Shown: piece after piece, positions 1-23,040 of the stretch | How the letters are laid out: the number at the start of each line of letters is the position of its first letter | Numbering within the stretch: position 1 is the stretch's first letter | Source: a virus | Length of the DNA stretch: 23,040 bases | IMG/VR virus record: IMGVR_UViG_3300021139_000156 | Span: 1-23,040 of that record | Reading direction: 5' to 3' (one strand) | Notes under the pieces: generated by a model | Told to the model about the DNA's origin: nothing | Databases searched by the model: none | What the model saw: the letters and a program-made list of their open reading frames with translations, nothing else | Translations under genes and position numbers: made by a program

Positions 1-226
1 CTTTAACAGTAGCGTTGACATTCTTTATTAACTCTTCTCTTGTAATTCCTACAAGATCTAAATATTCATAAATTACAGGAGTAAGACTTTCTCCAACACC
101 AATTCCAGGTTTGCTATGATCATATACTAGCGTGACATCTACATTAGATTTCCAATATTTTTTAATATAAGTGGCAGCCATGATACCTGCTGTACCTCCG
201 CCTACAACTAAAATTTTATAAGTCAT
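1..226 (-). CDS. Flavin-dependent halogenase (tryptophan-halogenase family), N-terminal part only
   Basis: This gene is cut by the left edge, leaving about 75 N-terminal residues. Translation from the ATG at 226 gives a hydrophobic beta strand followed by GGGTAG (residues 9-14), the Rossmann FAD-binding loop in the form typical of tryptophan halogenases (PF04820). A GVGES stretch follows near residue 48, as expected for this family. Such enzymes use FADH2, oxygen and halide to make hypohalous acid and halogenate an aromatic substrate. The diagnostic WxWxIP motif would lie outside the window, so a related FAD monooxygenase is not strictly excluded. The start overlaps the stop of the upstream oxygenase by 4 bp (ATGA), so it is probably translationally coupled. 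A phage-encoded halogenase (VirX1, from a cyanophage) is known from earlier work, so the family is plausible here. Confidence 0.8.
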   Translation of the reverse strand, partial: MTYKILVVGGGTAGIMAATYIKKYWKSNVDVTLVYDHSKPGIGVGESLTPVIYEYLDLVGITREELIKNVNATVK

Positions 227-819
227 TTAGTTAAAGCAAACCACGAAGACAAGATATACTTGGTGTCTTTAAGTGGAGGATTGCCCCTGTGTGTATGAGT
301 AAACGAACTAGGAAATATAACAACAGTTCCTTGGCGAGGTGGAATTCTTACACTTTGATGAATAAATTCTGTTTCACCGCCATCATTGATATCATTCAAA
401 TAGATAATAATACTTAAAAGTCGATTGGCTTCTTGTATACTGTTTTGTTCATGATGCCACATGTGATAACCCTGACCAGGTTTTGTACGCTGTATCTTAA
501 ACGGCAATATTTGTAAATTTTTAGCAAGATGACTAACACCATTTACAGTATCGGCATACGTAGCAATACATTTAGTTACTGCTTGTATTGCAGGTCCTGC
601 TAATTGCCCATTAGTTAACATTCTATTAGTATCTAGTTCTTCTCCTAGATAGTATTGCTGATCATCTTTAGCACTAATAGGAACTTGATCTACTTCTTGA
701 CGGTTAATAGTTAAATCATACCCATTTAAATATTCAAAATAAGAACACACTTTATTACAGTATTCTTTTGATAATTCGTTAGGAAAAACTCCAATTAAAT
801 TTTCTATAGTTGATGTCAT
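223..819 (-). CDS. 2OG-Fe(II) oxygenase, prolyl-4-hydroxylase / PKHD type
   Basis: The 198-residue protein has the double-stranded beta-helix signature of 2-oxoglutarate/Fe(II) dioxygenases. H122-x-E124 (in WHHE) forms the metal-binding dyad. GGETEF follows around residues 147-152. The distal histidine is H177 (or H175), and K187, ten residues later, fits the 2OG-binding basic residue. The segment TVVIFPSSFTHTHRGN is very typical of P4H-like phage hydroxylases. It would couple 2OG decarboxylation to hydroxylation of a protein or small molecule; the substrate cannot be read from sequence. Both ends overlap neighbours by 4 bp (ATGA), placing it firmly within the leftward operon between a second oxygenase-like gene and the halogenase. 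Confidence 0.85.
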   Translation of the reverse strand: MTSTIENLIGVFPNELSKEYCNKVCSYFEYLNGYDLTINRQEVDQVPISAKDDQQYYLGEELDTNRMLTNGQLAGPAIQAVTKCIATYADTVNGVSHLAKNLQILPFKIQRTKPGQGYHMWHHEQNSIQEANRLLSIIIYLNDINDGGETEFIHQSVRIPPRQGTVVIFPSSFTHTHRGNPPLKDTKYILSSWFALTK

Positions 820-1433
820 TCAGTATCCTCATAGTGGGAACTAACGCTATTTTTTCCAAGATTACGAACATTAAAATTATAAGCAACGCTAATTCGTTCA
901 TCATCGGTTAAATTATTAGGCGTAGTACCATGTATTGTACTACTTCTAAACACAATACACAACCCCTCTTCTGGATCTATACAAGTTTGGGTACTATTAT
1001 CCACAGTTGGCCCGGTATGATCTGGATCAATTGAGTACATTTGCGGGCACGGATGCATGAACATTAGTTGTCCGCTGCCTTTTGGTGCTCGAGAGTAATA
1101 TACAGCACTGATAAAGCTATTTGAGTGTACGTGAGGAGGATGCGTAGTTGCTGTGGCTGTACTAATATTAGCCCAACTATCAGCAATATACAATTCGTTG
1201 AACTCTATATTGTATCCACATTCTTTTACAAAATCAAATACTGCACTTTTTACAAAATAGTTTATTTTTTCAAATTCTTTAAATTTATGAACACCTGTTT
1301 TTGTTTGAAAAAAGTTAGAGCTACTGGTTAATAATTTGTCTTTGACAACTTCTTTAACACCGGCATGTATGGAAAAATCTAGATTATTATAAAACCCTAC
1401 AGTAGTAGGGAACATACGAGCAATTTCTTTCAT
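816..1433 (-). CDS. Putative 2OG-Fe(II) oxygenase-like protein (TIGR02466-type)
   Basis: The 205-residue protein resembles the phage family described as putative 2OG-Fe(II) oxygenases (TIGR02466/PF13759). It has a histidine cluster H98, H101 and H103, then a strand reading SAVYY and a GSGQLMF turn. A distal H168 sits in a STIHGTTPN context, and R180 in ERISVAYNFN would be the 2OG-binding arginine. The first metal motif reads H-V-H rather than the usual H-x-D/E, so the iron ligands are uncertain and the fold may be used differently. It overlaps the Nudix gene upstream and the P4H-like gene downstream by 4 bp each. Substrate unknown. The family assignment rests on motif spacing and the C-terminal strand pattern, not on a search. 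Confidence 0.7.
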   Translation of the reverse strand: MKEIARMFPTTVGFYNNLDFSIHAGVKEVVKDKLLTSSSNFFQTKTGVHKFKEFEKINYFVKSAVFDFVKECGYNIEFNELYIADSWANISTATATTHPPHVHSNSFISAVYYSRAPKGSGQLMFMHPCPQMYSIDPDHTGPTVDNSTQTCIDPEEGLCIVFRSSTIHGTTPNNLTDDERISVAYNFNVRNLGKNSVSSHYEDTE

Positions 1434-1879
1434 ATCAACTCCACTAGGTCGAATATAGTTTGAAGTTTTGTACGTATTGTTTTGCTTGAAAAGCTATTGC
1501 GTAGACCTTGATGTAAAGGTTTTGGCGCACGGTCGATAGTTGCCCATGCCCAAGCAATGTGTTCATCACTTAGTTCAGGAACAAATTCTTTTTCTATAAC
1601 ACAGAGATAGGTATGAAAGTTAAACACTTTATCATTAGATACAAATGTTTCTAACGGAATTGTTTTTAAGATTTTTGGTATTGTACCAATTTCCTCAGCA
1701 ATTTCTCGCTGTAGACCTTGCCATGGAGTTTCGCCAGTAATATTTGTACCACCAACTAAGCCCCAAGTTCCTTCATGCTTGCCATGTGCTTTTTGTAACA
1801 GTAAGAATCTTCGTGTAGATTTAGCGTAGAACAATGCTCCGCTACAAACTATTGATTCTTTTACAAGACTAGACTCCAT
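1430..1879 (-). CDS. Nudix hydrolase
   Basis: The 149-residue protein contains a complete Nudix box, GX5EX7REUXEEXGU. G44 and E50 are followed after seven residues by R58-E59-I60-A61-E62-E63-I64-G65. Nudix enzymes hydrolyse a nucleoside diphosphate linked to another moiety, with Mg2+ held by the box glutamates. Candidate substrates include oxidised nucleotides, NAD(H), ADP-ribose and capped RNA, and the exact one cannot be predicted. Similar Nudix proteins are, to my knowledge, common in T4-like cyanophages. The start lies 19 bp inside the end of the upstream structural gene, and the stop overlaps the next start by 4 bp, so it is co-transcribed and probably coupled with tail genes on one side and oxygenases on the other. 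Confidence 0.9.
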   Translation of the reverse strand: MESSLVKESIVCSGALFYAKSTRRFLLLQKAHGKHEGTWGLVGGTNITGETPWQGLQREIAEEIGTIPKILKTIPLETFVSNDKVFNFHTYLCVIEKEFVPELSDEHIAWAWATIDRAPKPLHQGLRNSFSSKTIRTKLQTIFDLVELI

Positions 1880-3297
1880 CGACCTGATGTATATACACCC
1901 TCAAAACTTTTTGCCCAGGAAACTCCGTTCCACAGGTATTGTACTCCAGTGTATATATTCGTTTGCCACACTAAGGTGTCTTTGTCTTGGTTTGCGTGGA
2001 AAACTACAGTCCATGTTTCCCCTGTCCACTCAATAATATCGTTTACTTCTGCTACAAAATCATGTCCGTAAATGTCTTGCCATGCACTAGCACCTTTTCC
2101 AGGTGCATTACGTGTGCTGCCTATTTCATCAATGATCAAGTATCGTGTGCCCACAGCAATAGGCTGATCTGTATCTTGTTTTTGAGGACGTTTTGGATTA
2201 AATGATTGTGGATTTATAATAGCATCAAATGTGCCAGGACTATTAGGTCTATAGCAATGTGATAAATCGTAACCTAATTCGTGATCTAGTAAACCCGCAC
2301 TATCAATTCCTGTGTTAGATGTAAGTGTATCAGGATTCCATTGAACATGCATGATTGTATAGTTCAACGGATCGATAGCCACAGTACCTACAATTTGACT
2401 ACCATTTGCTTGTGTTAAAAATAGTCTACTTGAACCTGCAACATATTTTCCAGGGTATTGTTGCATAATGGCCATCCAGTCTACTGGTGTGCCTTGACGT
2501 TCTGGAATATCTAATGTAGGCTCCAATGGAACTGTACTTTCGTGTGGCTCTAATAAAATAGCTTGATTGTTGTATACTTCTAATTTATAACCAGTAATGC
2601 TGATAGTCAATTCGTCAAATTGATTTTGAAAAGTTGTAGTCGATCCTAATGGGTCGCTTGATGAACCTAACCCTTCAATATAAGTTCCGCTATTAACAGC
2701 AGAACCATGCATGTTATTAATAATTTTTGTAATAACACCCAAATGTTTGACCTTAACTGGCGGATTAATCCATATAGGAGTATCTAGTGTTATGGTAGCA
2801 ATGTCAATTGGTGTGTCATTGCCTACAGGAACTGTTCGACTATCCCAGTTAATATCATTTAAGTTTAATACAGTTAAACTGGTCCAGTCAATATAATTGT
2901 CTGTAGTTTGTAGTTCTAGACTAGGATTGAACAAGACTAAAATCTGTTCAAGTATTTGTAATTTTTGATCTGTATTAGCACTCCAAATATCGCACTTCAT
3001 AGTAAGTTTGAATGGTGTTGGCATCAAACGTTCAATGGTATAATTTTTTCCTTGTTCAGGCAAGTATTTGTTAGTGCGAGGATCTATAGCACGCTCGCGA
3101 ATATTAACTGTATCTACAAAAGTTTGGTCAGCTAGTCTATCTCGATCCAATGCTAGAGCTGTAACATAGATACTGATACGTGGAACAGAGTTTACAATAT
3201 TTTCACTGTTTTGTCTAATAATGCTAGCTACTTGACGTTCAGCATCTCCATACATTACAGGTATACGATGTAAACTACCGTCACCGTATTTTACCAC
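1861..3297 (-). CDS. Virion structural protein, possibly gp15-like tail sheath stabiliser; 5' end uncertain
   Basis: The 478 residues counted from a GTG at 3297 contain segments that I associate with a conserved T4-like cyanophage tail/neck protein. These are a PVMYGD motif near the N-terminus, RQVASIIRQNSEN, a long central stretch with RLMPTPF, QKLQILEQIL and DNYIDWTSL, and a C-terminal module with NDIIEW and GVQYLW. The related annotation I recall is tail sheath stabiliser/completion (gp15), but this is not certain. The frame remains open upstream to 3381 and encodes a plausible N-terminal helix, FFYDAQIRRY, so the GTG is probably internal. There is no ATG in that extension, and an in-frame TAA lies at 3382-3384. 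It follows the upstream structural gene and overlaps the Nudix gene by 19 bp. Confidence 0.6.
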   Translation of the reverse strand: MVKYGDGSLHRIPVMYGDAERQVASIIRQNSENIVNSVPRISIYVTALALDRDRLADQTFVDTVNIRERAIDPRTNKYLPEQGKNYTIERLMPTPFKLTMKCDIWSANTDQKLQILEQILVLFNPSLELQTTDNYIDWTSLTVLNLNDINWDSRTVPVGNDTPIDIATITLDTPIWINPPVKVKHLGVITKIINNMHGSAVNSGTYIEGLGSSSDPLGSTTTFQNQFDELTISITGYKLEVYNNQAILLEPHESTVPLEPTLDIPERQGTPVDWMAIMQQYPGKYVAGSSRLFLTQANGSQIVGTVAIDPLNYTIMHVQWNPDTLTSNTGIDSAGLLDHELGYDLSHCYRPNSPGTFDAIINPQSFNPKRPQKQDTDQPIAVGTRYLIIDEIGSTRNAPGKGASAWQDIYGHDFVAEVNDIIEWTGETWTVVFHANQDKDTLVWQTNIYTGVQYLWNGVSWAKSFEGVYTSGRWSLVL

Positions 3298-3381
3298 AAA
3301 ATTACTAAACGCACGAATAGTCTGCGTAATATATCGTCTGATTTGCGCATCGTAGAAGAATTGTATAATAGTACAACGGCG

Positions 3382-3417
3382 TTAAACCGAAGCCTCCTTG
3401 TTTATATAGATGTGCAT
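3382..3417 (-). other. 11-codon mini-ORF with internal Shine-Dalgarno, coupled to upstream stop
   Basis: A TAATG junction at 3415-3419 overlaps the stop of the upstream structural gene with an ATG. That ATG opens only 11 codons (MHIYINKEASV) before a TAA. A perfect AAGGAGG ribosome-binding sequence lies inside it at 3393-3399, but no ATG, GTG or TTG follows at normal spacing. The mini-ORF is in the same frame as the gp15-like gene downstream. It is therefore either the true start of that gene damaged by small indels, or a leader peptide. Confidence 0.4.
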
Positions 3418-4871
3418 TATAAATCCGCCTTTGGTCTAAGCACTTTGCTGATGCTTTGTCTTTGTTCTTCTCTATCGTTGTATAAGGTAATAGTCCATTG
3501 TCCAGCGTAAGGAATTGTCTGTTGTTCACCGCCAATTACAGGTAAATTAATTCTTAACAACAATGGACTTGATGGAGTTTTTCTATAAGTTGTAATTAAG
3601 TTTGGATAATCACTGACAGCATAATCAATTAGTATGTTGTCTAGTTTTAAAACTACATAAATTCCCACTGGAGCAGATGGTAAAGTTGTACTGATAAGAC
3701 TAACTCCTGCATCAATTTGATCTTGTGTAAATGTTGCAAATGTTGTGGCAATTGCATCTGAATAAGTCCAAAGATTATTGTTGATAAATCCAGTTTTAAG
3801 TGTGCTACGAGTATCAGTTTGTGTCATAGTCATGCGTACACTATCTTCTACAGCTACCCATCCGCCTGTGCCAGAATCAAATCTAAACAATCTGTTAGGT
3901 AAGAAATCTACACGCAAGAAAAAGTCATTGTTAGCTGGCGCCGCTGGAAAATTAACACCAAATCCAAACGCATATCCGTTAACTGGAAAACCATCTCCAA
4001 CCAAGTATCCTGTATAACCTGTACGCAATGGTACACCGTACGTACCACTGGCAAGTTGTCCTGCATTGCTAGCATTGACAGTTTCATCATCTGCGGCCTG
4101 TAGTGTAGTTTGCCCGCCAGTAGCACTGGCCGCAAGAGTATAAAATTGACGAGTTTCATAACCACTCTTAGGAGCATCTGCTTCAGCTTGGGCAACAACT
4201 TGATTGTTAATTTCAATTTCTTTATTATATGTACTGAGCAAATCTTTAAGAGTAGTTCCTGCAACTGGATCTCCATTGGCATCCAAGGCTTGCTGATTAA
4301 AGATTTGTGCAAATTGCTGACTATCTGTAATTCGTTTAAGTTTTAATCTGTACAAATGTGGATACCAAGTTACGCTAAATCCTTCGCTAGCACGGCCTAC
4401 ATCTTCGATTACATAATAACGTGGTAAACTAAAGTCAAAATCGTTAAGAGCAAAATCGTCACGCAAATGCGGAAGTTCTATAACGTCCCCACTGATAGGT
4501 TTGCGCCCAATATACTTGATAAAATCGTTAATGTGTATGGTCATGTACAGGGTATCGTTGTCAATAAACAGGCCAAATTGGCTCAAATTAAAATCAATAT
4601 TTTGTACATTATAAAGCCCGCGAATTCTGTAGATTTCCGAGTCGTATTTTCTGTCACGATTTTCTAAAAATAGCAAATCTTGTATGTTTGTTACTGCTGT
4701 ATTAGCATAATTAGGCTGATCAGCTGTAGCATTAGCTGGGTCTGTACCAGCACCTAAGTATTTGTGCAGATAGACATCGGTTCCGCCAGCTTGAAACATC
4801 TCGCTGGCTTGGCGGTCAATGAACTTGTAGTCATTGCCCTTTTCTGGTTTATAAAGTGATAAGCGTGGCAT
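3417..4871 (-). CDS. Virion structural protein (neck/tail-associated, T4-like cyanophage type)
   Basis: The 484-residue protein begins MPRLSLYKPEKGNDYKF. It contains NIQDLLFLENRDRKYDSEIY, LSQFGLFIDNDTLYM and GDVIELPHLRDD, then YYVIEDVGRASEGFS with WYPHLYRLKLK. I recognise this arrangement as a conserved structural protein of T4-like cyanophages and related marine myoviruses. Its exact place in the virion is not known to me; a neck or tail-completion role fits its position between gp13-like and gp15-like genes. The C-terminal part (from about residue 230) is rich in Gly, Ala and Thr and is probably a later-added beta-rich domain. The ATG at 4871 lies only 5 nt after a late promoter and has no Shine-Dalgarno, implying a leaderless transcript. 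Confidence 0.65.
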   Translation of the reverse strand: MPRLSLYKPEKGNDYKFIDRQASEMFQAGGTDVYLHKYLGAGTDPANATADQPNYANTAVTNIQDLLFLENRDRKYDSEIYRIRGLYNVQNIDFNLSQFGLFIDNDTLYMTIHINDFIKYIGRKPISGDVIELPHLRDDFALNDFDFSLPRYYVIEDVGRASEGFSVTWYPHLYRLKLKRITDSQQFAQIFNQQALDANGDPVAGTTLKDLLSTYNKEIEINNQVVAQAEADAPKSGYETRQFYTLAASATGGQTTLQAADDETVNASNAGQLASGTYGVPLRTGYTGYLVGDGFPVNGYAFGFGVNFPAAPANNDFFLRVDFLPNRLFRFDSGTGGWVAVEDSVRMTMTQTDTRSTLKTGFINNNLWTYSDAIATTFATFTQDQIDAGVSLISTTLPSAPVGIYVVLKLDNILIDYAVSDYPNLITTYRKTPSSPLLLRINLPVIGGEQQTIPYAGQWTITLYNDREEQRQSISKVLRPKADL

Positions 4872-4876
4872 AATGA

Positions 4877-4884
4877 TATTTATC
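4877..4884 (-). promoter_or_regulatory. T4-type late promoter (GATAAATA) for the leftward operon
   Basis: Reading on the minus strand, GATAAATA differs at one base from the T4 late consensus TATAAATA. Its last base is 5 nt before the ATG of the structural gene, so the expected transcription start falls on or next to that ATG. It is the only promoter I see for the whole leftward gene set. Confidence 0.65.
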
Positions 4885-4887
4885 GAA

Positions 4888-4895
4888 GCTAAATA
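4888..4895 (+). promoter_or_regulatory. Possible weak late promoter (GCTAAATA) for the gp13 unit
   Basis: GCTAAATA faces rightward, with one mismatch to the GATAAATA form used elsewhere in this window. With the leftward promoter it forms a dyad TATTTA-N7-TAAATA at 4877-4895, suggesting back-to-back late initiation. It has no other support. Confidence 0.35.
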
Positions 4896-4912
4896 TGTAT
4901 GAGGAACTAATT

Positions 4913-5698
4913 ATGGACGATTTCGCACCTACAACGCTATCCGACCCAACAGCTGAAAGAAATAAGGTATTTGACTATGTCAAACTAATGCTAGGCGACG
5001 GCATGGTTGAGGTGGAATTAGACCCAGCACACTATGAAGCGGCCCTGGATAGAGCATTAAATCGCTATAGACAAAAAAGCCCAAATGCTGTGGAAGAAAG
5101 CTATTTGTTTATAGAACTAATTCAGGATACAAATGAATATAAATTGCCCGACGAAGTTATTGAAGTTCGTCAGGTATTTCGTCGTGCTATCGGTTCAAGA
5201 AGTGGTATGGGTGCAGGTGGAACATTGTTCGAACCATTCAACTTGGCGTACACAAACACTTACTTGATGAGTGGTAGCATGATGGGCGGACTAGCAACTT
5301 ATGAAGCATTTGCTGGTTATCAAAAACTAGTTGGACGTATGTTTGGTAGTTATATTGAATTTAAATGGAAACCAACTAGCCATTTACTAACAATTCTACA
5401 ACGTCCGTTTGCACAAGGCGAACAGATTCTTGTACAAAGTTATAATTTCCGTCCAGACTGGGTCTTGTTACAAGATGTATATGCCAAACAATGGTTGAAA
5501 GACTATACCTTGGCTGTTTGTAAACAGATGTTAGGTGAAGCACGTAGCAAGTTTGCCAGTATTGCTGGCCCAGGAAGTCCAATTCAGATGAATGGATCTG
5601 ATTTGAAATCAAGTGCCAAAGAAGATTTTGACCGTCTAGACAAAGAGCTAGACACTTATGTAGCAGGCGGAAGCGGCTATTATTTTGTACTAGGATAA
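4913..5698 (+). CDS. 13: Neck protein, T4 gp13-like (head completion/neck)
   Basis: The protein has 261 residues from the ATG at 4913. This start is preferred over the in-frame ATG at 4895 because GAGGAA (4901-4906) sits 6 nt upstream. The sequence carries features of T4-like gp13: VIEVRQVFRRAIGS, FEPFNLAYTNTYLM, GGLATYEAFAGYQKLVGRMFG, and near the end QWLKDYTLAVCKQMLGEARSKFASIAGP. Gp13 forms part of the neck that closes the packaged head and receives the tail. Its length is a little below the roughly 310 residues of T4 gp13. It is transcribed away from the other neck/tail genes and is followed within 4 nt by a small ORF. The family call is firm and the gene number is by analogy with T4. Confidence 0.78.
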   Translation: MDDFAPTTLSDPTAERNKVFDYVKLMLGDGMVEVELDPAHYEAALDRALNRYRQKSPNAVEESYLFIELIQDTNEYKLPDEVIEVRQVFRRAIGSRSGMGAGGTLFEPFNLAYTNTYLMSGSMMGGLATYEAFAGYQKLVGRMFGSYIEFKWKPTSHLLTILQRPFAQGEQILVQSYNFRPDWVLLQDVYAKQWLKDYTLAVCKQMLGEARSKFASIAGPGSPIQMNGSDLKSSAKEDFDRLDKELDTYVAGGSGYYFVLG

Positions 5699-6053: not shown

Positions 6054-9000
6054 ATGAGTATAACCACTATAAACTTAGGAAAGATTAGATTAAACTGGCG
6101 AGGTAACTGGGCGACAAGCACATCTTACAGTATAAATGATGCTGTCTATTACGGCGGTAGTAGCTATGTTTGTGTAACAGCTAACACATCTGGAACTTGG
6201 GCAACAGACCTTGCATCTGCTTATTGGCAAATTATGGCCAGCGGTGCTACATCTAATACAACCGCAGGCGATATAACTTATTATGGTGCAAGTGGTAATA
6301 TCAATTTACCTATCGGTAATTATGGTCAAGTGTTAACAGTCGGTTCTAGTGGTTACCCTATTTGGCAAAGTCCAGTAATTGAAGGCGATGTATTTTATGT
6401 TAGTATCAACGGTAATGACAGCAACAACGGTACTAGTTTAAACACCGCATTCAAAACACTAAAATATGCCTGTACTCAAGTAACTGGTCCAGCAACAATT
6501 TATGTCAAGACTGGTACATATTACGAAACTTTACCAATTACAGTTCCTGCAAACGTTTCTATCGTTGGTGATAGTATGCGTGATACAATTATTGCACCAT
6601 TGACTGGAACAGCTAGTACAACATATACTAGCGGCGGAAACACAACCACATTAGTAGTTGCTAGCACTACTGGAATTTTACCAGGAATGACTGTAACTGG
6701 TACAGGTTATTCAGGCGGACAAAAAGTTGTCAGCGTAACTAATAGTACAACACTAGTAATGAGTGCTGTATCTAATACAACGCCAAGTGGTACATTGACA
6801 TTTACATACCTAAGTACAGATGCTAGTCCTGTAGCTAATAATCTAAGTACTATGTTCTATCTAAGCGATCAGACTTTGTTACAAGGATTGTTACTAACTG
6901 GTATGACTGGGTTTAGCTATAGTGGTGCGCATCCAACAGATATTACATACGCAACAATTGGTGGCGTATATTTAAGATTAAATCCTAGTAGTAATATTAC
7001 CAAGAGTCCTTATATTAAAGATTGTACAGCAAAAAGTACAGGCGGCGTGGGAGCTATCATAGATGGTAGTGTTCAATCAGGCGGTAATAAGAGCATGGTA
7101 TTCTGGGCTTATAACATCGTTATAGATGGCGGTGTTGGTATCTGGTGTGCTAACGGTGGTAAAGCCGAAGCTGTATCAGTCTTTACTTATTATTGTTATA
7201 TAGGTTATGCGGCCAGCGGTGGCGGCTTAATCCGTAGTATCGCAGGTAATAACAGTTATGGTACATATGGTGCCGTTAGTACAGGTTATTTAAGTACAGA
7301 AACAGCAATTACTGGCACTGTATATGGCGGCATGCTAACATATAATAATGCTTTAGCTACAGGAATTTTTACACAAGGCGAAACAATCACACAAGCTACT
7401 AGCGGTGCTACCGGTATAGTTACTAGTGTGCAAACTGGATACTTATATTATAAATCTACTAGCGGCACATTTGATACTACTCATTTAGTCACAGGTAGCA
7501 CTAGTGGTGCTACAATGACTCCTACAGTAGTGGGAGGACAATCAAATTATGTATTAGTATTGAGCGGTGTAAGTGGAACCATTACGGCAGGTGCAAGTCT
7601 TCAATTTACATCTGGAGATACTACAGCTTATGTTGTCAGTGCTGTAAGTACAGCTACGGTAAATGGTACAGCAGTTACTATTTTAACATTGGCACAACAA
7701 AAAATTGTAGCTAGTGGTGACGGCGTCGGAGTTCAAATTCGTTATAACTTTAGTTTGATTAGATTACAGTCGCATGATTTTTTACAAATTGGTACTGGCG
7801 GTATTGCTACAACAAACTATCCAGGAACACCGACGCAAGGTCCTACTCCAGCTAATCAAATTAACTACACGTTCCCAGGTCGTGTTTATTATGTGTCAAC
7901 AGACGAACTTGGTAATTTTTATGTAGGTAACTATTTTAGTGTTAACCAAGCAACCGGTGCAGCCACATTGAACGCTAGTGCGTTTAACTTGAGCGGTTTG
8001 ACTAGTTTGCGATTAGGTAGTATTGGCGCACAACTTGGCGCACAGATTAATGAATTCTCAACAGATGGAACATTAAGTCAAAACTCAGACGTTAAAGTTC
8101 CAACGCAACATGCGGTTACAACTTATTTAGGTGCTAGTTATCAAAATCATAGCCCTGCCTATGACACAGTAGTAACAACAGCTACAGCAAGTAGTGGTAC
8201 AAATATTACAGTTGGCACAACTACTGGTATGGTTGTTAATATGACTGTAGTATTTGGCGCTAACTTAGGTAGTTTAACAGCACAAACTGTTTATTATATT
8301 TTAACAGCTAGCGGAACAACAATTACAGTTGCTCTTGCACCAGGCGGCTCGGCAGTTACAGTTGGAACAACAACTAGTCAAAGTGTTTCTGTTAATGCAG
8401 GATGGAGTTTAGGCGATCCAACTCATCGTTGGAGTCATTTGTATGTTGGTCCTGGATCAATTACACTAGGATCAATTACAATTAGTGATGTAAGCGGTAC
8501 ACTACAAGTTACAAGTTCTGGTAGTAATGCCAGTGCTAATATTAATGCTATTAACAATGGAACAAGCAATGTTACTGTAGCTAACAATGGAAGTGTAACT
8601 GTTGTTTCAGCAGGTACAACGGCAATCACAGCTACTTCGGCTAGTACAACAGTTAATAATAATTTAATTGTAAGCGGCACATTAACTGTTAACGGTTCTA
8701 CTGAATATATTCAAGGTACTAACACAGTCTTAACAGATAACTTATTAGAATTACACGCACCAACTGGCGGTGTTGGCGGTACTTGGAGTTCTAGTGACGG
8801 TAAAGACATTGGTTTACGTATGCACTATTATGCTAGTGGTGCTGACCAAAACGCGGCATTATTATTAGCTAACGATACAGGTTATTTAGAATGGTATAAT
8901 ACAGGTTCTGAAAATGGTAGCGGTGATTTTGTATCAGCCACATATGGTACAATTAAAGCTGCTACATTTTTAGCAACAACTAGTATTGTTAGCAGCAGTA

Positions 9001-11060
9001 CAACATTCAATCTTGTTAATACTACAGCAACAACCTTAAACATTGGCGGTGCAGCAACTACTGTAAGTTTAGGTGCTAGTACAGGTACAACAACTGTTAA
9101 CAATGGATTAACAGTCACTGGTTCTACAACATTAAGTTCAGCATTAACCTATGGCGGTGTAACATTAAGTAATGCAGTTACTGGTACTGGAAATATGGTA
9201 CTAAGTTCTAGTCCAACTATAACAAGTCCAAGTATTACTACAAGTATTACCACAGGCAGTACAACATTCGCATTAGCAAATACAACTGCTACTACAATTA
9301 ATGGATTTGGCGCCGCAACTGCAATTAATGTGGCATCAAGTGCTGGTTCAGCTACTACGTTGTATTTAGGTGCCAACACTAATAATAATATATTAAGTAT
9401 TTTAGGTAACGGTACAACTGGTACAGCAAGTTTAACATCTAATATAACTAATGGTACAACTAATTTGTTTGTTGGAAATGGTGGAACAGTTTATATTGGT
9501 GGGGCAGGATCTGGTGTACAAATTGGTACAAGCAGTGGCAACAGCACATTACAAATTCAAGGTAATGGTACAAGTGGTACAGCAACATTGACTACAAACG
9601 TAACAACTGGTACTGTTAATATGTTCACAGGAGCTAATAACGTCAACGTAGCTAGCGGTAGTGGAACAGTTTCTTTACAAGGTAGCACAGTTGTTTTAAC
9701 AAATAATTCTGGACCATTACAATTTTATTTTAAAGTAATTGCTACTCAAGGTACGCCTAATTTAGGATCATACAAAGGTTATCTATTATTAGCCAAAGCA
9801 TATATCAGCAATGGTAATCAATCTCTTAGCATTGTAGATGGTACATTTACTCTAATAAGAGGCAGTACAGGCAGTGGAAATAGAAATGATACATATCAAG
9901 TTGTATCACAAAGTGCTTATGGTTCAGAAAGGCTACAAGTATCTGTTTATCAAGATACTGGAAGTCCTTTTTATACTAGATTATGTAAAGTAACTTATAG
10001 CGGTGTAGTTTATCATGCTATAGAAACTACAGTAAGCGGTGGAAATCCAGATAACGGTATAACATTTACAGGTAACTACGCTAACACTACTCCTGTCTAC
10101 TGTGATACCACTTATGTTACTTCAACAATCAGTACTACTGGTACCGTTGGAAGTATAACTGGAACTGGCCCATGGACAGCAACTATTACTGGTATGAGTT
10201 CAACTAGTGGTCTAAGTGTTGGTAGTACCATTACTGCTACCGCAGGTACAGGTACATTATATGGCGGTAGCCCGACAAGTGTGATAGTTGCCAGCATTGT
10301 AAGTAGTACTAGTATAACCTATACAGTAACAGGCGGTACGACTCCTACTGCCGGTACCGTAACAAACATAACAACTGCTCCTTCAATATCAACTTTTGGT
10401 TCAGCTTATGTGTACGATTCAAGCGGAACGACTACATTCCCTAACATAACAGCTGGTAGTGTGACATCAACTGGTACTGGTAGCTTTACGTCATATGTTA
10501 CTATGGGTAGTTTAGTTGCTAACGATCCGGGTAGTAACTACTATTCATATACTCAAAGAATTGGCGGTACAGTTGGTATAAGTCAGGGTGTAAGTATTGG
10601 CCAAGGCAGCAACAGTTATACAGCACCTCCTTCAAATGGATTGTTATTATATGGACCATTATATGGCCAGCTGTATAGCTCTAGTACAAGCACAATTAAC
10701 TTAACTGGAATTACAGCAGGTAGTTTTGTATGTTTGGAAGTTATTGGTTCTGCTAATCCTAACAGCGGCGGGGCCCCTTATGTTCACCCAATACATGCTT
10801 ATGTATATTGTGCCACAGGCTACAATGGTAGTGCTGTCAGCTATTACATTTATACCCAACACGTTGCTCCTCCAGCAGCCAGTGTATCGGCTGGTCATGC
10901 ATACAGTGCCAACGAAATGGATGCTTTCTTTTACAATGGAACTTCATCTGCGACCACAATAACTACTAGCACTGGCGGTTACTATGTTCAATTACAAATT
11001 TACAACTATAACGCAACTTACGGTTCAGGATTCAACGTGCGAGTTACTCAAAGATATTAA
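6054..11060 (+). CDS. Large mosaic tail fibre / receptor-binding protein
   Basis: At 1668 residues this is the largest gene here. Residues about 8-65 (WRGNWATSTSYSINDAVYY...YWQ) resemble a carbohydrate-binding module of the CBM5/12 type. Residues about 111-185 (VFYVSINGNDSNNGTSLNTAFKTL..., then IVGDS) resemble the opening of a pectin-lyase-like right-handed beta-helix. Thr/Gly/Ser-rich repeated beta modules follow. Near residues 674-690 is an SDVKVPTQHAVTTYL segment common in trimeric fibres. Residues 888-970 hold a conserved domain (LTDNLLELHAP, GLRMHYYASG). The C-terminal 500 residues contain a distinct domain (GYLLLAKAYISNG...) and a terminal beta domain that is the best candidate for receptor contact. 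The composition is nearly free of Cys and poor in charged residues. The fibre role is well supported; the domain borders are estimates. Confidence 0.8.
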   Translation: MSITTINLGKIRLNWRGNWATSTSYSINDAVYYGGSSYVCVTANTSGTWATDLASAYWQIMASGATSNTTAGDITYYGASGNINLPIGNYGQVLTVGSSGYPIWQSPVIEGDVFYVSINGNDSNNGTSLNTAFKTLKYACTQVTGPATIYVKTGTYYETLPITVPANVSIVGDSMRDTIIAPLTGTASTTYTSGGNTTTLVVASTTGILPGMTVTGTGYSGGQKVVSVTNSTTLVMSAVSNTTPSGTLTFTYLSTDASPVANNLSTMFYLSDQTLLQGLLLTGMTGFSYSGAHPTDITYATIGGVYLRLNPSSNITKSPYIKDCTAKSTGGVGAIIDGSVQSGGNKSMVFWAYNIVIDGGVGIWCANGGKAEAVSVFTYYCYIGYAASGGGLIRSIAGNNSYGTYGAVSTGYLSTETAITGTVYGGMLTYNNALATGIFTQGETITQATSGATGIVTSVQTGYLYYKSTSGTFDTTHLVTGSTSGATMTPTVVGGQSNYVLVLSGVSGTITAGASLQFTSGDTTAYVVSAVSTATVNGTAVTILTLAQQKIVASGDGVGVQIRYNFSLIRLQSHDFLQIGTGGIATTNYPGTPTQGPTPANQINYTFPGRVYYVSTDELGNFYVGNYFSVNQATGAATLNASAFNLSGLTSLRLGSIGAQLGAQINEFSTDGTLSQNSDVKVPTQHAVTTYLGASYQNHSPAYDTVVTTATASSGTNITVGTTTGMVVNMTVVFGANLGSLTAQTVYYILTASGTTITVALAPGGSAVTVGTTTSQSVSVNAGWSLGDPTHRWSHLYVGPGSITLGSITISDVSGTLQVTSSGSNASANINAINNGTSNVTVANNGSVTVVSAGTTAITATSASTTVNNNLIVSGTLTVNGSTEYIQGTNTVLTDNLLELHAPTGGVGGTWSSSDGKDIGLRMHYYASGADQNAALLLANDTGYLEWYNTGSENGSGDFVSATYGTIKAATFLATTSIVSSSTTFNLVNTTATTLNIGGAATTVSLGASTGTTTVNNGLTVTGSTTLSSALTYGGVTLSNAVTGTGNMVLSSSPTITSPSITTSITTGSTTFALANTTATTINGFGAATAINVASSAGSATTLYLGANTNNNILSILGNGTTGTASLTSNITNGTTNLFVGNGGTVYIGGAGSGVQIGTSSGNSTLQIQGNGTSGTATLTTNVTTGTVNMFTGANNVNVASGSGTVSLQGSTVVLTNNSGPLQFYFKVIATQGTPNLGSYKGYLLLAKAYISNGNQSLSIVDGTFTLIRGSTGSGNRNDTYQVVSQSAYGSERLQVSVYQDTGSPFYTRLCKVTYSGVVYHAIETTVSGGNPDNGITFTGNYANTTPVYCDTTYVTSTISTTGTVGSITGTGPWTATITGMSSTSGLSVGSTITATAGTGTLYGGSPTSVIVASIVSSTSITYTVTGGTTPTAGTVTNITTAPSISTFGSAYVYDSSGTTTFPNITAGSVTSTGTGSFTSYVTMGSLVANDPGSNYYSYTQRIGGTVGISQGVSIGQGSNSYTAPPSNGLLLYGPLYGQLYSSSTSTINLTGITAGSFVCLEVIGSANPNSGGAPYVHPIHAYVYCATGYNGSAVSYYIYTQHVAPPAASVSAGHAYSANEMDAFFYNGTSSATTITTSTGGYYVQLQIYNYNATYGSGFNVRVTQRY
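8978..9640 (+). repeat. Degenerate internal repeats in the tail fibre gene
   Basis: Two copies of a unit reading STTF-L-NTTATT followed by GAAT lie at about 8978-9077 and 9239-9330. Two copies of a GNGT-GTA-LT-N-T-GT unit lie at about 9405-9478 and 9561-9634. The DNA copies have diverged but keep stretches such as ggtacagcaa. They are likely repeated beta-strand turns of the fibre shaft, and they may support recombination between fibre genes. Confidence 0.6.
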
Positions 11061-11079
11061 TAATTAAGGATAATACAGA

Positions 11080-11664
11080 ATGGCAAATTATACAGGTTCA
11101 GTGGGAGTTACCGGATATCCTCAGACTATTGGTAATACTGGTAACAATATAAGTTCCAATGCTTATAGTATAGGCCAGCAAGGCGCAAATTTTACGCATG
11201 TATTCATTCCTGCTACAGCATTCGATACTGCTAGTACAAGCTGGACCGTGATGTCAAGTTTGGCAATTCCGGGTCCTGGATACTGGCGTGTATGGTGTAA
11301 CTTAAGAATTCGATGGGGCGCAAACAGCTACGGCATTGGCAGTAATTTATCTTCAGCTAATTCGGCAGGATCAACTTTTATTCCCACAACTAGCGGGGCT
11401 ACTGGCAGTACCGGTACTACCAATGGACGTTGGATTATTGAGCGTGTAAGTGATAGTACTTTTGGAAATATTAACATAAGCCCAGAATGGATTGTGGCTA
11501 TGCCAACAGGATTAACATATCCTTACACAATATATCTACAAATGTACGCTCAGTCTGCGGATGGCTATAATTTAATTCAAAATGATGGCAATGGCCAAAG
11601 CACATTTGCCGCATATTGTATTAACGGATATGGTCCTACCGGTTCAACAATTTATAGTTTTTAA
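11080..11664 (+). CDS. Putative fibre-associated protein, first of a tandem pair
   Basis: This 194-residue protein has no family I can name. It begins MANYTGSVGVTGYP. Its core, FIPATAFDT, SLAIPGPGYWRVWCNLR, NISPEWIV, YPYTIYLQMY and NGQSTFAA, is shared almost position by position with the next gene. It lacks charged clusters, signal peptide and membrane segments and looks like a beta-sandwich with a Gly/Ser-rich N-terminal arm. An AAGGA ribosome-binding site precedes it, and it starts 19 nt after the fibre gene. The position suggests a tip, adhesin or fibre-accessory role, but that is inference. Confidence 0.6.
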   Translation: MANYTGSVGVTGYPQTIGNTGNNISSNAYSIGQQGANFTHVFIPATAFDTASTSWTVMSSLAIPGPGYWRVWCNLRIRWGANSYGIGSNLSSANSAGSTFIPTTSGATGSTGTTNGRWIIERVSDSTFGNINISPEWIVAMPTGLTYPYTIYLQMYAQSADGYNLIQNDGNGQSTFAAYCINGYGPTGSTIYSF

Positions 11665-11674
11665 AGGTTAACCA

Positions 11675-12265
11675 ATGGCAAACTACACAGGATCCACGGG
11701 TGTTACAAGTTTTTTTAATACCCAAGGTAATACTGCTAATAATATAGGAAACGGTATAGTCTACGGCGGCGCTTTACAAACCGGGACTAATTGGGCGCAT
11801 ACTTTTATTCCAGCCACAGCATTTGATACAAGCTCAAGTGGTTGGGCAAATATACAGTCACTGGCCATACCTGGGCCGGGTATTTGGAGAGTATGGGCTA
11901 ACTTACGCTACAAATGGAGCGGAGGCACCCAAGTGGCTTCGGTATTGACCACATCGAGCACAGGAGGTTCGGGTGAAATTCAAGCATACAGTGGAGCTAC
12001 CGGTAGCTCAGGCACTCGTAATTGGAGATGGTGTTTAGAACAGCCTGTAGCTAATAGTTTTGCCAACATGAATATAAGCCCCGAATGGATTGTGTTTTTT
12101 CCTACAGGCCTGTCTTACCCTTATACAATTTATCTACAACAATATTCATATTCTTCCGATAGTGCTTACGCAATACAAAATGACTCAAACGGTCAAAGTA
12201 CATTTGCGGCAATAATGATGAATCCCAATCCGGGCGGCAACGGTACTACAATTTATTGCTTATAA
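11675..12265 (+). CDS. Putative fibre-associated protein, second of a tandem pair
   Basis: The 196-residue paralogue of the preceding gene starts 10 nt after its stop, with AAAGG as ribosome-binding site. It shares the MANYTGS opening, FIPATAFDT, SLAIPGPGIWRVWANLR, SGATGS, NISPEWIV, YPYTIYLQQY and QNDSNGQSTFAA. Differences concentrate in the region after the N-terminal arm, in a loop around residues 90-105, and at the C-terminus. This is the pattern expected for duplicated binding proteins diverging in contact loops. No function can be read directly. It is the last gene of the fibre unit, and no convincing terminator follows. Confidence 0.6.
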   Translation: MANYTGSTGVTSFFNTQGNTANNIGNGIVYGGALQTGTNWAHTFIPATAFDTSSSGWANIQSLAIPGPGIWRVWANLRYKWSGGTQVASVLTTSSTGGSGEIQAYSGATGSSGTRNWRWCLEQPVANSFANMNISPEWIVFFPTGLSYPYTIYLQQYSYSSDSAYAIQNDSNGQSTFAAIMMNPNPGGNGTTIYCL

Positions 12266-12415: not shown

Positions 12416-13105
12416 ATGATTATAGGTGTGTGCGGTTTTATTGGTTCTGGCAAAGATACTGTTGCTGATTATCTAGTTAATTTTCACGGTTACAGACGAG
12501 AAAGTTTTGCTGGAAGTTTGAAAGATGCTGTTGCCGCTGTGTTTGGCTGGGATAGAACCATGCTAGAAGGGCGCACAAAACAAGCTCGCGAATGGCGTGA
12601 ACAAGTTGATGCTTGGTGGGCCAATCGTTTGGATATGCCCGATCTTACTCCTCGTTGGATACTACAGCACTGGGGCACAGAAGTTTGTCGTACTGGATTC
12701 CACGACGACATGTGGATTGCTAGTTTGGAGAATAAACTACGAAATAGCAAGGACGATATTGTTATCAGTGATTGCAGATTTCCCAATGAAATTAAAAGTA
12801 TTAAAGATGCCGGCGGTATTGTAGTCCGTGTAAAGCGTGGTCCAGAACCTGAATGGTACCGAGATGCCGCAGATATGAACGCTGGCGAACATTGTATGAA
12901 TTGGGCATTAGCTAAAAATCGTATGAGCAAATTAGGTATACACGCATCGGAAACTGCTTGGGTTGGCACCAAATTTGATCATACATTAACTAACGATACC
13001 AGCATTGATGACTTGTACGCCAAAGTACAAGCTATTATAGATCCGGAACAAGATCTCCCTGACGCCAACGAACGCCCTCTTTATGCAGGACTCGAGCGCA
13101 GTTAG
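12416..13105 (+). CDS. 1: Deoxynucleoside monophosphate kinase (T4 gene 1-like)
   Basis: The 229-residue protein opens with a P-loop, GFIGSGKDT (residues 7-15), in the form used by phage dNMP kinases. Next is SFAGSLKDAVAAVFGW, equivalent to the AGPIKDAL segment of T4 gp1. LQHWGTEVCR lies at about 83-92 and a Walker-B-like VISDCRFPNE at about 116-125. The enzyme phosphorylates dNMPs to dNDPs for phage DNA synthesis in the host cytoplasm. It stands alone between late tail genes and has its own sigma-70 promoter, as expected for an early gene. Its last 71 bp overlap, antisense, the 3' end of the HNH-like gene. The gene number follows the T4 analogy. Confidence 0.85.
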   Translation: MIIGVCGFIGSGKDTVADYLVNFHGYRRESFAGSLKDAVAAVFGWDRTMLEGRTKQAREWREQVDAWWANRLDMPDLTPRWILQHWGTEVCRTGFHDDMWIASLENKLRNSKDDIVISDCRFPNEIKSIKDAGGIVVRVKRGPEPEWYRDAADMNAGEHCMNWALAKNRMSKLGIHASETAWVGTKFDHTLTNDTSIDDLYAKVQAIIDPEQDLPDANERPLYAGLERS

Positions 13106-21150: not shown

Positions 21151-22296
21151 ATGAACTATAAAGATCTTTTAACAAAATTACAAGCAATCGAAGAAGGACA
21201 TACTCCACCGATTGCACCAACACATACCGATGGTCCTGCAGAAGAAGAAATGATGGGCATCTCTCTTCCAATGCCAGGCATGATTGGTCACGAAGAAGCA
21301 CCTAAACAATCTGACAATGTTAGCATGAATGTTAGTTTAAATGGTCAAGGTGCTGGCGGTGTACGCGATCTAATGAACATTCTTCATAACATTGAAAAAG
21401 GTGCAACTGGTGCAGAGCATGATGATATTGTGTTTGGCGAGCCGGGCGAACAGCACGAAAGACATCCACACATTGGTGATGATGAAATGGAAGAAACAAT
21501 GGGCGACAATGGCCAAACATTTGGTAATAGTGTCCATGGTGATCATGGCACACACGTACACGGTATCGATGCTGTTACAGCTACAGGCGATGATTTGGCT
21601 AGCAAAGGCAAAGCAAGTCCACTACAACGTGCTCCAGGCGTTAACCCATTACGTAGACCAATGGAAGAAGGTCTAGTTAAAAAATTACAAAATTTATATA
21701 ACGAAATTAAAACACGTGATTTAAATGAAAATGTATTGACGGATGAAACAGGCCATACAATGCAACATATCTTGCACACACATCAGCGTGATGTTAGAGA
21801 TTTTGAACAAAACGGCGATATGAGCGATAGCTTGTACGATGCACTATACGATTATTACTTTGACGATATGCCATACGGTGTTAAGAAAGCTCGCGATGGC
21901 GACCCGTACGAGTGGATTAGTGATCGTTTTGCAGATGATTTAGGCATTAGTGAAACAGTAGCAATGAATCAACAAGTTGAAGAAAATCAAGCAGGGCACG
22001 ACTATCAAACTGGTGAGCCTTTAAAACAAGGCCCGGACGGCAAATGGTATAACAGCAAAGGCGAAGAACGTGATCCTATGCATGGCGGGCCATTACGTCC
22101 TGATGGAAGTGCAACACTTAGAAGTTTAGTACCTAAACCTCCTAAACCTTCGGCAAATATGGATAAACCTAATCCAGCACCAACACAACCTACAAATATT
22201 ACACCACCTGCAAATTCAGATAACAGTAAAATATCTATAAACATGCCAGAATCGGTACAGCTAGCAGAAATGTTGAAGATTGCAGGATTAAAATAA
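21151..22296 (+). CDS. Acidic, low-complexity structural/prohead-type protein, function unknown
   Basis: The 381-residue acidic protein starts MNYKDLLTKLQAIEEG, a short amphipathic helix ending in I-E-E, again compatible with (L/I)xE protease cleavage. The first half is rich in Met, Pro, Gly, Asp, Glu and His. It includes DNVSMNVSLNGQGAGGVRDLMNILHNIEKG and AVTATGDDLASKGKAS, segments I have seen in hypothetical proteins of T4-like cyanophages. The middle holds a helical domain (DSLYDALYDYYFDDMPYGVKKARDGDPYEWISDRFADDLG). The C-terminus is Pro/Asn-rich, closing with ESVQLAEMLKIAGLK. GGAG provides the ribosome-binding site, and the gene ends just before a terminator. A prohead core or scaffold role is a guess from composition and position. 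Confidence 0.55.
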   Translation: MNYKDLLTKLQAIEEGHTPPIAPTHTDGPAEEEMMGISLPMPGMIGHEEAPKQSDNVSMNVSLNGQGAGGVRDLMNILHNIEKGATGAEHDDIVFGEPGEQHERHPHIGDDEMEETMGDNGQTFGNSVHGDHGTHVHGIDAVTATGDDLASKGKASPLQRAPGVNPLRRPMEEGLVKKLQNLYNEIKTRDLNENVLTDETGHTMQHILHTHQRDVRDFEQNGDMSDSLYDALYDYYFDDMPYGVKKARDGDPYEWISDRFADDLGISETVAMNQQVEENQAGHDYQTGEPLKQGPDGKWYNSKGEERDPMHGGPLRPDGSATLRSLVPKPPKPSANMDKPNPAPTQPTNITPPANSDNSKISINMPESVQLAEMLKIAGLK

Positions 22297-22409: not shown

Positions 22410-23040
22410 ATGTTTAAAGAAAACAAATATTATCGATGGTATTTTCAAATAATTAAAAACGCTCAGGGCCGCGTATTAGATATATACAGCGAGACTCATC
22501 ATATTATACCTAGATGTTTAGGAGGTAATGATTCTAGAGAAAATTTAGTAGAATTAACAGCAAGAGAACATTTTATTTGTCATTGGCTGTTGACAAAATT
22601 TGTGTTAATTGGCAAAGAAAAAATGGATTATGCGTTATGGTTAATGATAAATGTAGAAAATAAGCTCCAAGAACGTTACAAAATTAATTCTAAAACTTAT
22701 GAAATTTTAAGGACTAAACTTTCTAAAACATTTAGTAAACAACATACGGGCAGGAAAATGTCCGAAGAAACTAAACGAAAGATTAGTGAAACAAGGAAAA
22801 AGAAATTTAAAGACGGCACATTGGAAATAAAAGTATATGATACTACTAGAAAAAAACTTTCTAAAAATCGTTCTGGGTATAAACATACACAAGAAACAAA
22901 AGATAAAATAGGAAATGCTCATCGAGGAAAAGTAATATCCGATGAACAGAAACAGACATTGTCCGAAATCAATACTGGCAAACAATGGGCAGAAGAGACA
23001 AGAACAAAACTTAGCAATACCCTTAAAGATGATTATAAAT
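22410..23040 (+). CDS. HNH homing endonuclease with NUMOD3 repeats, 3' end outside window
   Basis: The frame is open from the ATG at 22410 to the right edge, at least 210 residues. Residues 28-64 (SETHHIIPRCLGGNDSRENLVELTAREHFICHWLLTKF) are a classic HNH nuclease core, with H30-H31, N45 and H54. From about residue 112 come at least four NUMOD3-type DNA-binding repeats of the form GxxxSEETKxKISExxxG (GRKMSEETKRKISE, GYKHTQETKDKIGN, GKVISDEQKQTLSE, GKQWAEETRTKLSN). Such proteins nick or cut a specific phage target and spread by homing. It stands alone behind a terminator with its own late promoter, as expected for a free-standing homing gene. The basic, Lys-rich composition differs from the structural genes nearby. 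Confidence 0.88.
   Translation, partial: MFKENKYYRWYFQIIKNAQGRVLDIYSETHHIIPRCLGGNDSRENLVELTAREHFICHWLLTKFVLIGKEKMDYALWLMINVENKLQERYKINSKTYEILRTKLSKTFSKQHTGRKMSEETKRKISETRKKKFKDGTLEIKVYDTTRKKLSKNRSGYKHTQETKDKIGNAHRGKVISDEQKQTLSEINTGKQWAEETRTKLSNTLKDDYK

Follow-up and report, generated by a model that had tools for sequence, protein, structure and literature searches.

What do phage halogenases modify, and why does one lie beside two oxygenase genes at the end of a tail-gene operon? To our knowledge, phage halogenases and 2-oxoglutarate (2OG) oxygenases have been counted among the auxiliary metabolic genes for ~15 years with no known substrate. The locus described here belongs to a large lake phage and is at the left end of a viral contig of 23,040 nucleotides (IMG/VR record IMGVR_UViG_3300021139_000156), the complete record, hereafter the window. 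Recurrent islands at the same place in other phages make the natural job of viral halogenases testable, and their fibre-side position, their linkage to hydroxylase and protein arginine methyltransferase (PRMT)-like genes, and the similar setting of the halogenase VirX1 in a cultivable cyanophage pose the question of whether virion proteins are halogenated and hydroxylated.

Organization of the gene run at the contig edge

The left part of the window contains a leftwards-transcribed operon, a divergent gene and a large tail-fibre gene, with the following features:

2–226, minus strand: HAL-A, N-terminal 75 residues of a flavin-dependent halogenase (PF04820 9.4e-17, profile 1–73); open at the contig edge, 481 residues in relatives
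223–819, minus strand: 2OG-Fe(II) oxygenase, prolyl-4-hydroxylase (P4H)-like, HxE...H...K (PF13640 2e-14)
816–1433, minus strand: 2OG-Fe(II) oxygenase-like, PF13759/TIGR02466 type, HxH...H...R (PF13759 2.2e-19)
1430–1879, minus strand: Nudix hydrolase (PF00293 4.9e-16)
1861–3297, minus strand: gp15-like (T4 gp15) tail sheath stabiliser (PF16724 2.5e-18; phrog_11196 1e-60)
3417–4871, minus strand: neck-type virion structural protein in the gp14 position, first gene of the operon (phrog_11591 3e-89)
4877–4884, minus strand: motif GATAAATA, resembling a T4-type late promoter and located 5 nt 5′ of the ATG of the first operon gene
4895–5698, plus strand: gp13-like head-tail adaptor, divergent to the operon (phrog_211 1e-30)
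6054–11060, plus strand: large tail-fibre protein (phrog_9851 3e-189)

The overlapping five-gene run described in the initial annotation (a structural gene, here gp15, then Nudix, two oxygenases and the start of a halogenase) is borne out by the open reading frames, the overlaps and the profile matches. The gp15 and Nudix genes overlap by 19 bp and the next three junctions by 4 bp each, all ATGA, and the PF04820, PF13640 and PF13759 matches are those of a halogenase and two 2OG oxygenase-like proteins. The run is not a chance arrangement, since 56 of 76 related loci have the same 19-bp overlap and nearly all differences from a 92% identical relative are synonymous. The synonymous/nonsynonymous counts are 17/0 for the halogenase, 44/2 for oxygenase 2OG-3, 45/9 for 2OG-5 and 17/1 for the Nudix gene, and dN/dS is 0.009 for the 223–819 oxygenase and 0.037 for the 816–1433 gene; the genes compared are thus under strong purifying selection.

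Of 55 loci, 39 have the T4 late promoter-like motif [TG]ATAAATA just 5′ of the first operon gene, where shuffles give an expectation of 0.75, so the earlier suggestion that the operon is expressed late with the virion genes is likely to be correct. The first operon gene starts 5 nt past this motif with no visible Shine-Dalgarno sequence (window 4871–4884, minus strand, and 55 related loci), and the late transcript may therefore be leaderless; the divergent gp13 gene of many relatives does have such a site, of GGAG type.

The run is one end of a larger enzyme island

Because the window is the whole record, the halogenase gene could not be extended within it, and relatives were used for the leftward reading. 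Contigs that are 92–96% identical over shared stretches carry the gene run beyond the window edge; those used agree with it at all 75 halogenase residues (100% identity), and one (L011) continues to the full enzyme. The extension called for in the initial annotation yields a complete halogenase of 481 residues, with a FAD-binding GxGxxG motif (G9, G11, G14) and catalytic residues K75 and E326 (equivalent to PrnA K79 and E346), but the expected WxWxIP motif is degenerate (WILQVP).

The feature is also larger than was described, as the gene run is the end of a ~12 kb island. In the 62-kb contig G001 this island is located between the tail-neck and tail-fibre genes and contains ~13 enzyme genes, including three halogenases, about eight 2OG-like genes and one PRMT-like methyltransferase, with nearly all neighbours overlapping or abutting. 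On the gp15 strand the order is Nudix, two 2OG genes, halogenase A, four 2OG genes, the PRMT-like methyltransferase and a further 2OG gene; a convergent group from the fibre side consists of a companion protein (phrog_17480), a degenerate 2OG gene, a 2OG gene, halogenase B and halogenase C. Pfam and PHROGs together identify eight 2OG-like proteins plus the degenerate one. By curated searches, five of the six related contigs have three halogenases each and the remaining contig has two. The far flank of the island is formed by tail-fibre genes with endosialidase-type chaperone domains; fibre-tip proteins are encoded at 22005–25170 of G001. Scans for tRNAs in G001 and for Rfam families in the window were empty.

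Synonymous divergence between the window (223–4871) and G001 (35723–40371) is 0 in the neck gene, 0.07 in gp15, 0.20 in Nudix and ~0.48 in the oxygenases, a rise along the operon that indicates a recombination boundary within or near gp15. The first fibre of the window phage shares 79% identity with that of the relative over residues 1–1193 and is unlike it beyond (window 6054–12265 against G001 41554–54649), and the later fibre genes of the two phages do not match each other; these two close relatives have thus exchanged fibre genes.

The Nudix gene belongs with gp15

The neighbourhood was surveyed in 80 gp15-anchored viral loci, picked irrespective of halogenases and ranked by gp15 similarity. 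A Nudix gene directly follows gp15 in 76 of them, two of the four exceptions being contig ends, and the pair is adjacent in loci with and without halogenases. The Nudix box is near-canonical (GTNITGE-x7-REIAEEIGT) and conforms to GX5EX7REUXEEXGU with T at the last hydrophobic position. The same adjacent pair is present in the jumbo phages 121Q and GAP32 and in the PA5oct group. In cultured 121Q and GAP32 it is also followed by virion and fibre genes, and the slot after Nudix holds annotated virion proteins and no annotated halogenase or oxygenase. As Nudix is constant beside gp15 regardless of halogenases, it is a partner of gp15 and probably lies outside the halogenase/oxygenase system; its own role would probably be nucleotide housekeeping. 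The proposal that the four enzymes form one functional unit and act together accordingly fails for Nudix, which occurs without the others.

The position of this gene also bears on whether the Nudix hydrolase, a dUTPase-like companion, the oxygenases and the halogenases act together on nucleotides or DNA. Nudix does adjoin the island, and the companion protein family has a weak dUTPase-like fold match; however, Nudix is found without the other enzymes, and the oxygenases match P4H, TIGR02466 and PKHD types, with no score to the TET/JBP or AlkB families, which makes nucleotide modification quite improbable.

Halogenases and oxygenases are linked cargo on the fibre side

In 45 loci the downstream sequence is at least 4 kb long; 16 of these have halogenases together with oxygenases, one has a halogenase only, six have an oxygenase only and 22 have neither. 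Oxygenases are thus present in 16/17 halogenase loci and 6/28 others (Fisher p=1.7e-6, an optimistic value as the contigs are related). The halogenases and oxygenases are therefore variable cargo linked to each other, and the co-occurrence for which the initial annotation proposed a survey holds for these two enzyme types but not for Nudix, the exact four-gene order having turned up only in the window phage population. The loci are mostly metagenomic fragments and related contigs are not independent; oxygenases were counted with local HMMs (E 1e-5) whose seeds came from the islands themselves and from two cultured phages, and the halogenase and one oxygenase family were compared with Pfam on 19 contigs.

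The cargo is strongly asymmetric about gp15: the 434 kb lying towards the fibres contain 36 halogenases and 94 oxygenases, and the 369 kb in the opposite direction contain 0 and 6. Islands of halogenase-anchored loci contain as many as five halogenases and eleven oxygenases; curated Pfam models support such islands on long contigs, most matches in the cassette-bearing ones falling within 10–20 kb. Since the cargo is frequently on the strand opposite to gp15 (57/93 oxygenases and 14/33 halogenases), coupling to gp15 itself is incidental. Fibre-side confinement relative to gp15 is not explained if the enzymes modify host proteins or the host surface late in infection, for example to block superinfection or aid release, rather than the virion. 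The same protein-modifier enzyme types and late expression would also fit that alternative, and we regard it as improbable.

The island enzymes

The FAD-binding and catalytic residues are well conserved among the cassette halogenases: G9 and G11 are present in 95/95 and G14 in 92/95, and the catalytic Lys and Glu in 95/95 and 87/95 respectively. The other two halogenases of the island have WLWRVP and WVWQVP; as the WxWxIP motif is variable across the cassette set, the family and fold assignment of HAL-A stands, with halogenating activity predicted. The model of HAL-A (pLDDT 93.6) has a predicted PrnA fold (TM 0.88). The alignment of the two sequences ends at PrnA 409, and the structural alignment spans nearly the whole chain; PrnA 443–455, near the C terminus, are presumably the residues that recognise free tryptophan. 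In profile scores HAL-A is also weakly similar to the peptidyl-residue maturases LodB, GoxB and QhpG, of which QhpG hydroxylates Trp within a protein (PMC7876137). In a tree of 145 phage halogenases (FastTree, with some long branches) the three enzymes of the window phage are in three different, deep clades. Tandem duplication is thereby rejected as their origin, and halogenases of one island drawn from different old clades are as expected for enzymes with distinct sites.

The 223–819 oxygenase resembles the Bacillus P4H structures 3ITQ and 5HV0 (E 5e-8), and a relative's copy of the 816–1433 gene matches TIGR02466 (6.6e-23). The candidate residues for the iron triad (expected HxD/E...H) and for 2OG (Arg/Lys) are HxE...H...K in the former and HxH...H...R in the latter, a pattern common to other PF13759 members.

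The island methyltransferase has the sequence hallmarks of a putative protein arginine methyltransferase. It matches CARM1 (E 7e-21 over residues 19–153) and has the SAM motif VLDIGAGLG, a double-E loop (HEIFGPFLLDE) and a THW-like RHW/HHW motif (two phages). Only one short partial match was found among 50,697 phage records, and the single further clear relative in IMG/VR also adjoins a gp15-Nudix pair and halogenases.

Other islands differ in content. Six other loci have a gene resembling JmjC protein hydroxylases (NO66 E 1e-6 for one), seven other cassettes have a carbamoyltransferase, DUF6445 is present in other islands, and one locus (L143) has an RfaE-like sugar enzyme, as read from the sequence. 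The companion protein family is present in 10/20 gp15 loci with a halogenase and 3/60 without; the weak dUTPase-like matches are the only ones that a structure search with its model gives.

Comparison with cultured phages and known systems

VirX1, which we take to be the structurally solved, broad-range iodinase of cyanophages Syn10 and syn9, is identical in its PDB entry (6QGM) to syn9 gp42 except for the first residue. The order in syn9 is tail-fibre genes, a halogenase, VirX1, a companion gene and about eight 2OG-like genes, and HTVC008M, Sf-CH11, S-RIM44 and S-CREM1 have similar arrangements. VirX1 and HAL-A are both members of the PF04820 family located in islands beside tail fibres, but they share only ~27% identity and HAL-A has WILQVP for WxWxIP. 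The window phage is also of another lineage than syn9, with a gp15-Nudix pair, three halogenases and a PRMT-like gene. Among 16 phages inspected by hand, approximately nine halogenases are beside fibre, neck or virion genes, six, mostly lone, are elsewhere and one is unclear; the fibre-side association is therefore a property of multi-enzyme islands rather than of every phage halogenase.

In cyanomyoviruses, variable cargo is present within the structural module beside gp15, in the hyperplastic region from g15 to the sheath gene g18 (Millard et al. 2009, as cited in PMC2984593), and the cargo that this review names is mainly carbon and electron-transport genes. The window lineage differs in that the cargo is between gp15-Nudix and the fibres, and the sheath gene is on the other side of gp15.

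A putative role in modification of virion proteins

The enzyme island fills the slot between gp15-Nudix and the tail-fibre genes in a myovirus lineage related to jumbo phages. The reading that we favour, at somewhat below even confidence, is that its flavin-dependent halogenases, 2OG-Fe(II) oxygenases and PRMT-like enzyme would be made late alongside the virion proteins and would together modify protein side chains, probably in the receptor-binding apparatus and most likely in the fibres or other virion surface proteins. The chemistry would include aromatic halogenation, hydroxylation of Pro, Lys, Asp or Arg, and Arg methylation, and the likely benefit would be a changed or stabilised receptor-binding surface. 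A protein substrate is suggested by the PRMT-, P4H- and JmjC-like enzymes and the weak maturase similarity of HAL-A, together with the location of the island and the content of that of the window phage, in which profile searches of relatives' contigs found no synthase, carrier, ligase or precursor gene. The reading as a whole is further favoured by fibre-side confinement, halogenase–oxygenase linkage, the late-promoter motif and the similar setting of VirX1 in syn9. Literature searches within open-access papers turned up no account of phage virion proteins with halogenated or hydroxylated residues.

Several observations point the other way. The predicted fold of HAL-A is that of free-tryptophan halogenases, the window phage and its relative have enzymes in common but differ in the downstream fibre set, seven other cassettes contain a carbamoyltransferase, the frequent companion family is weakly dUTPase-like, and lone phage halogenases are often located away from fibre genes. 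Fibre Trp content shows no clear rise in loci with cassettes (p=0.10; 9 proteins, against 68 from loci without), and Tyr, Pro and Arg are not enriched. Collagen-like fibres, considered as a hydroxylase substrate, are not linked to the cassettes (0/19 halogenase loci and 3/60 others) and were rejected.

The main alternative is that the product of the island is a small molecule or glycan, newly made or decorated, such as a halogenated amino-acid- or sugar-derived metabolite or a capsule or LPS decoration. This has been proposed for the 10-gene cluster of S-SSM6a, which contains a halogenase, 2OG enzymes, carbamoyltransferases and a cupin (Iyer et al. 2021, PMC7824862), and it is in keeping with the seven carbamoyltransferase-bearing cassettes, the sugar enzyme of L143 and the predicted PrnA fold. 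In both that cluster and the island of the window phage, a methyltransferase and multiple 2OG enzymes accompany a halogenase. However, genes for a carbamoyltransferase, sugar enzyme, ligase or carrier are absent from the latter island, which has three halogenases, a PRMT-like rather than HemK-like methyltransferase and a neck–fibre slot. These absences, the PRMT-like enzyme and the fixed position beside virion genes speak against a small-molecule or glycan product, which we consider less likely than the favoured reading. A purely metabolic function, in which the oxygenases draw down 2-oxoglutarate and tune the host nitrogen response, has been proposed for cyanophages (Sullivan et al. 2010, PMC3037559), but it leaves the halogenases, the PRMT-like enzyme, the diverse paralogues and the location unexplained and is very improbable here.

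Modification of virion proteins may extend beyond this lineage. A dedicated viral virion-decoration system, with several halogenases, a hydroxylase battery and a PRMT in a fixed fibre-side slot, could diversify the receptor-binding apparatus across large-myovirus lineages and constitute the natural role of VirX1-type halogenases. We put this wider proposal forward tentatively, as plausible but doubtful. Halogenated and hydroxylated virion proteins, if they exist, would open a further level of chemistry in phage host range and supply halogenases that act on proteins.

Other features of the loci

A deoxynucleoside monophosphate kinase gene and a homing endonuclease gene are present among the tail genes of the window (12416–13105 and 22410–23039). 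Another phage of the same lineage has GroES- and GroEL-like genes, read from the sequence, that separate the gp15-Nudix pair from its oxygenase/halogenase island (L206:6624–8597). A 258-residue 2OG-like protein of a further locus (L061:6177–6953) has Tyr in place of the distal His and so is probably catalytically dead. Some island proteins (L260, which is syn9, L262, and PHROG families phrog_274, phrog_2297 and phrog_3531) are annotated as 'DNA endonuclease V', 'minor coat protein' or 'ferrochelatase'. These names are probably misannotations, as the proteins match 2OG-oxygenase HMMs or stand among proteins that do.
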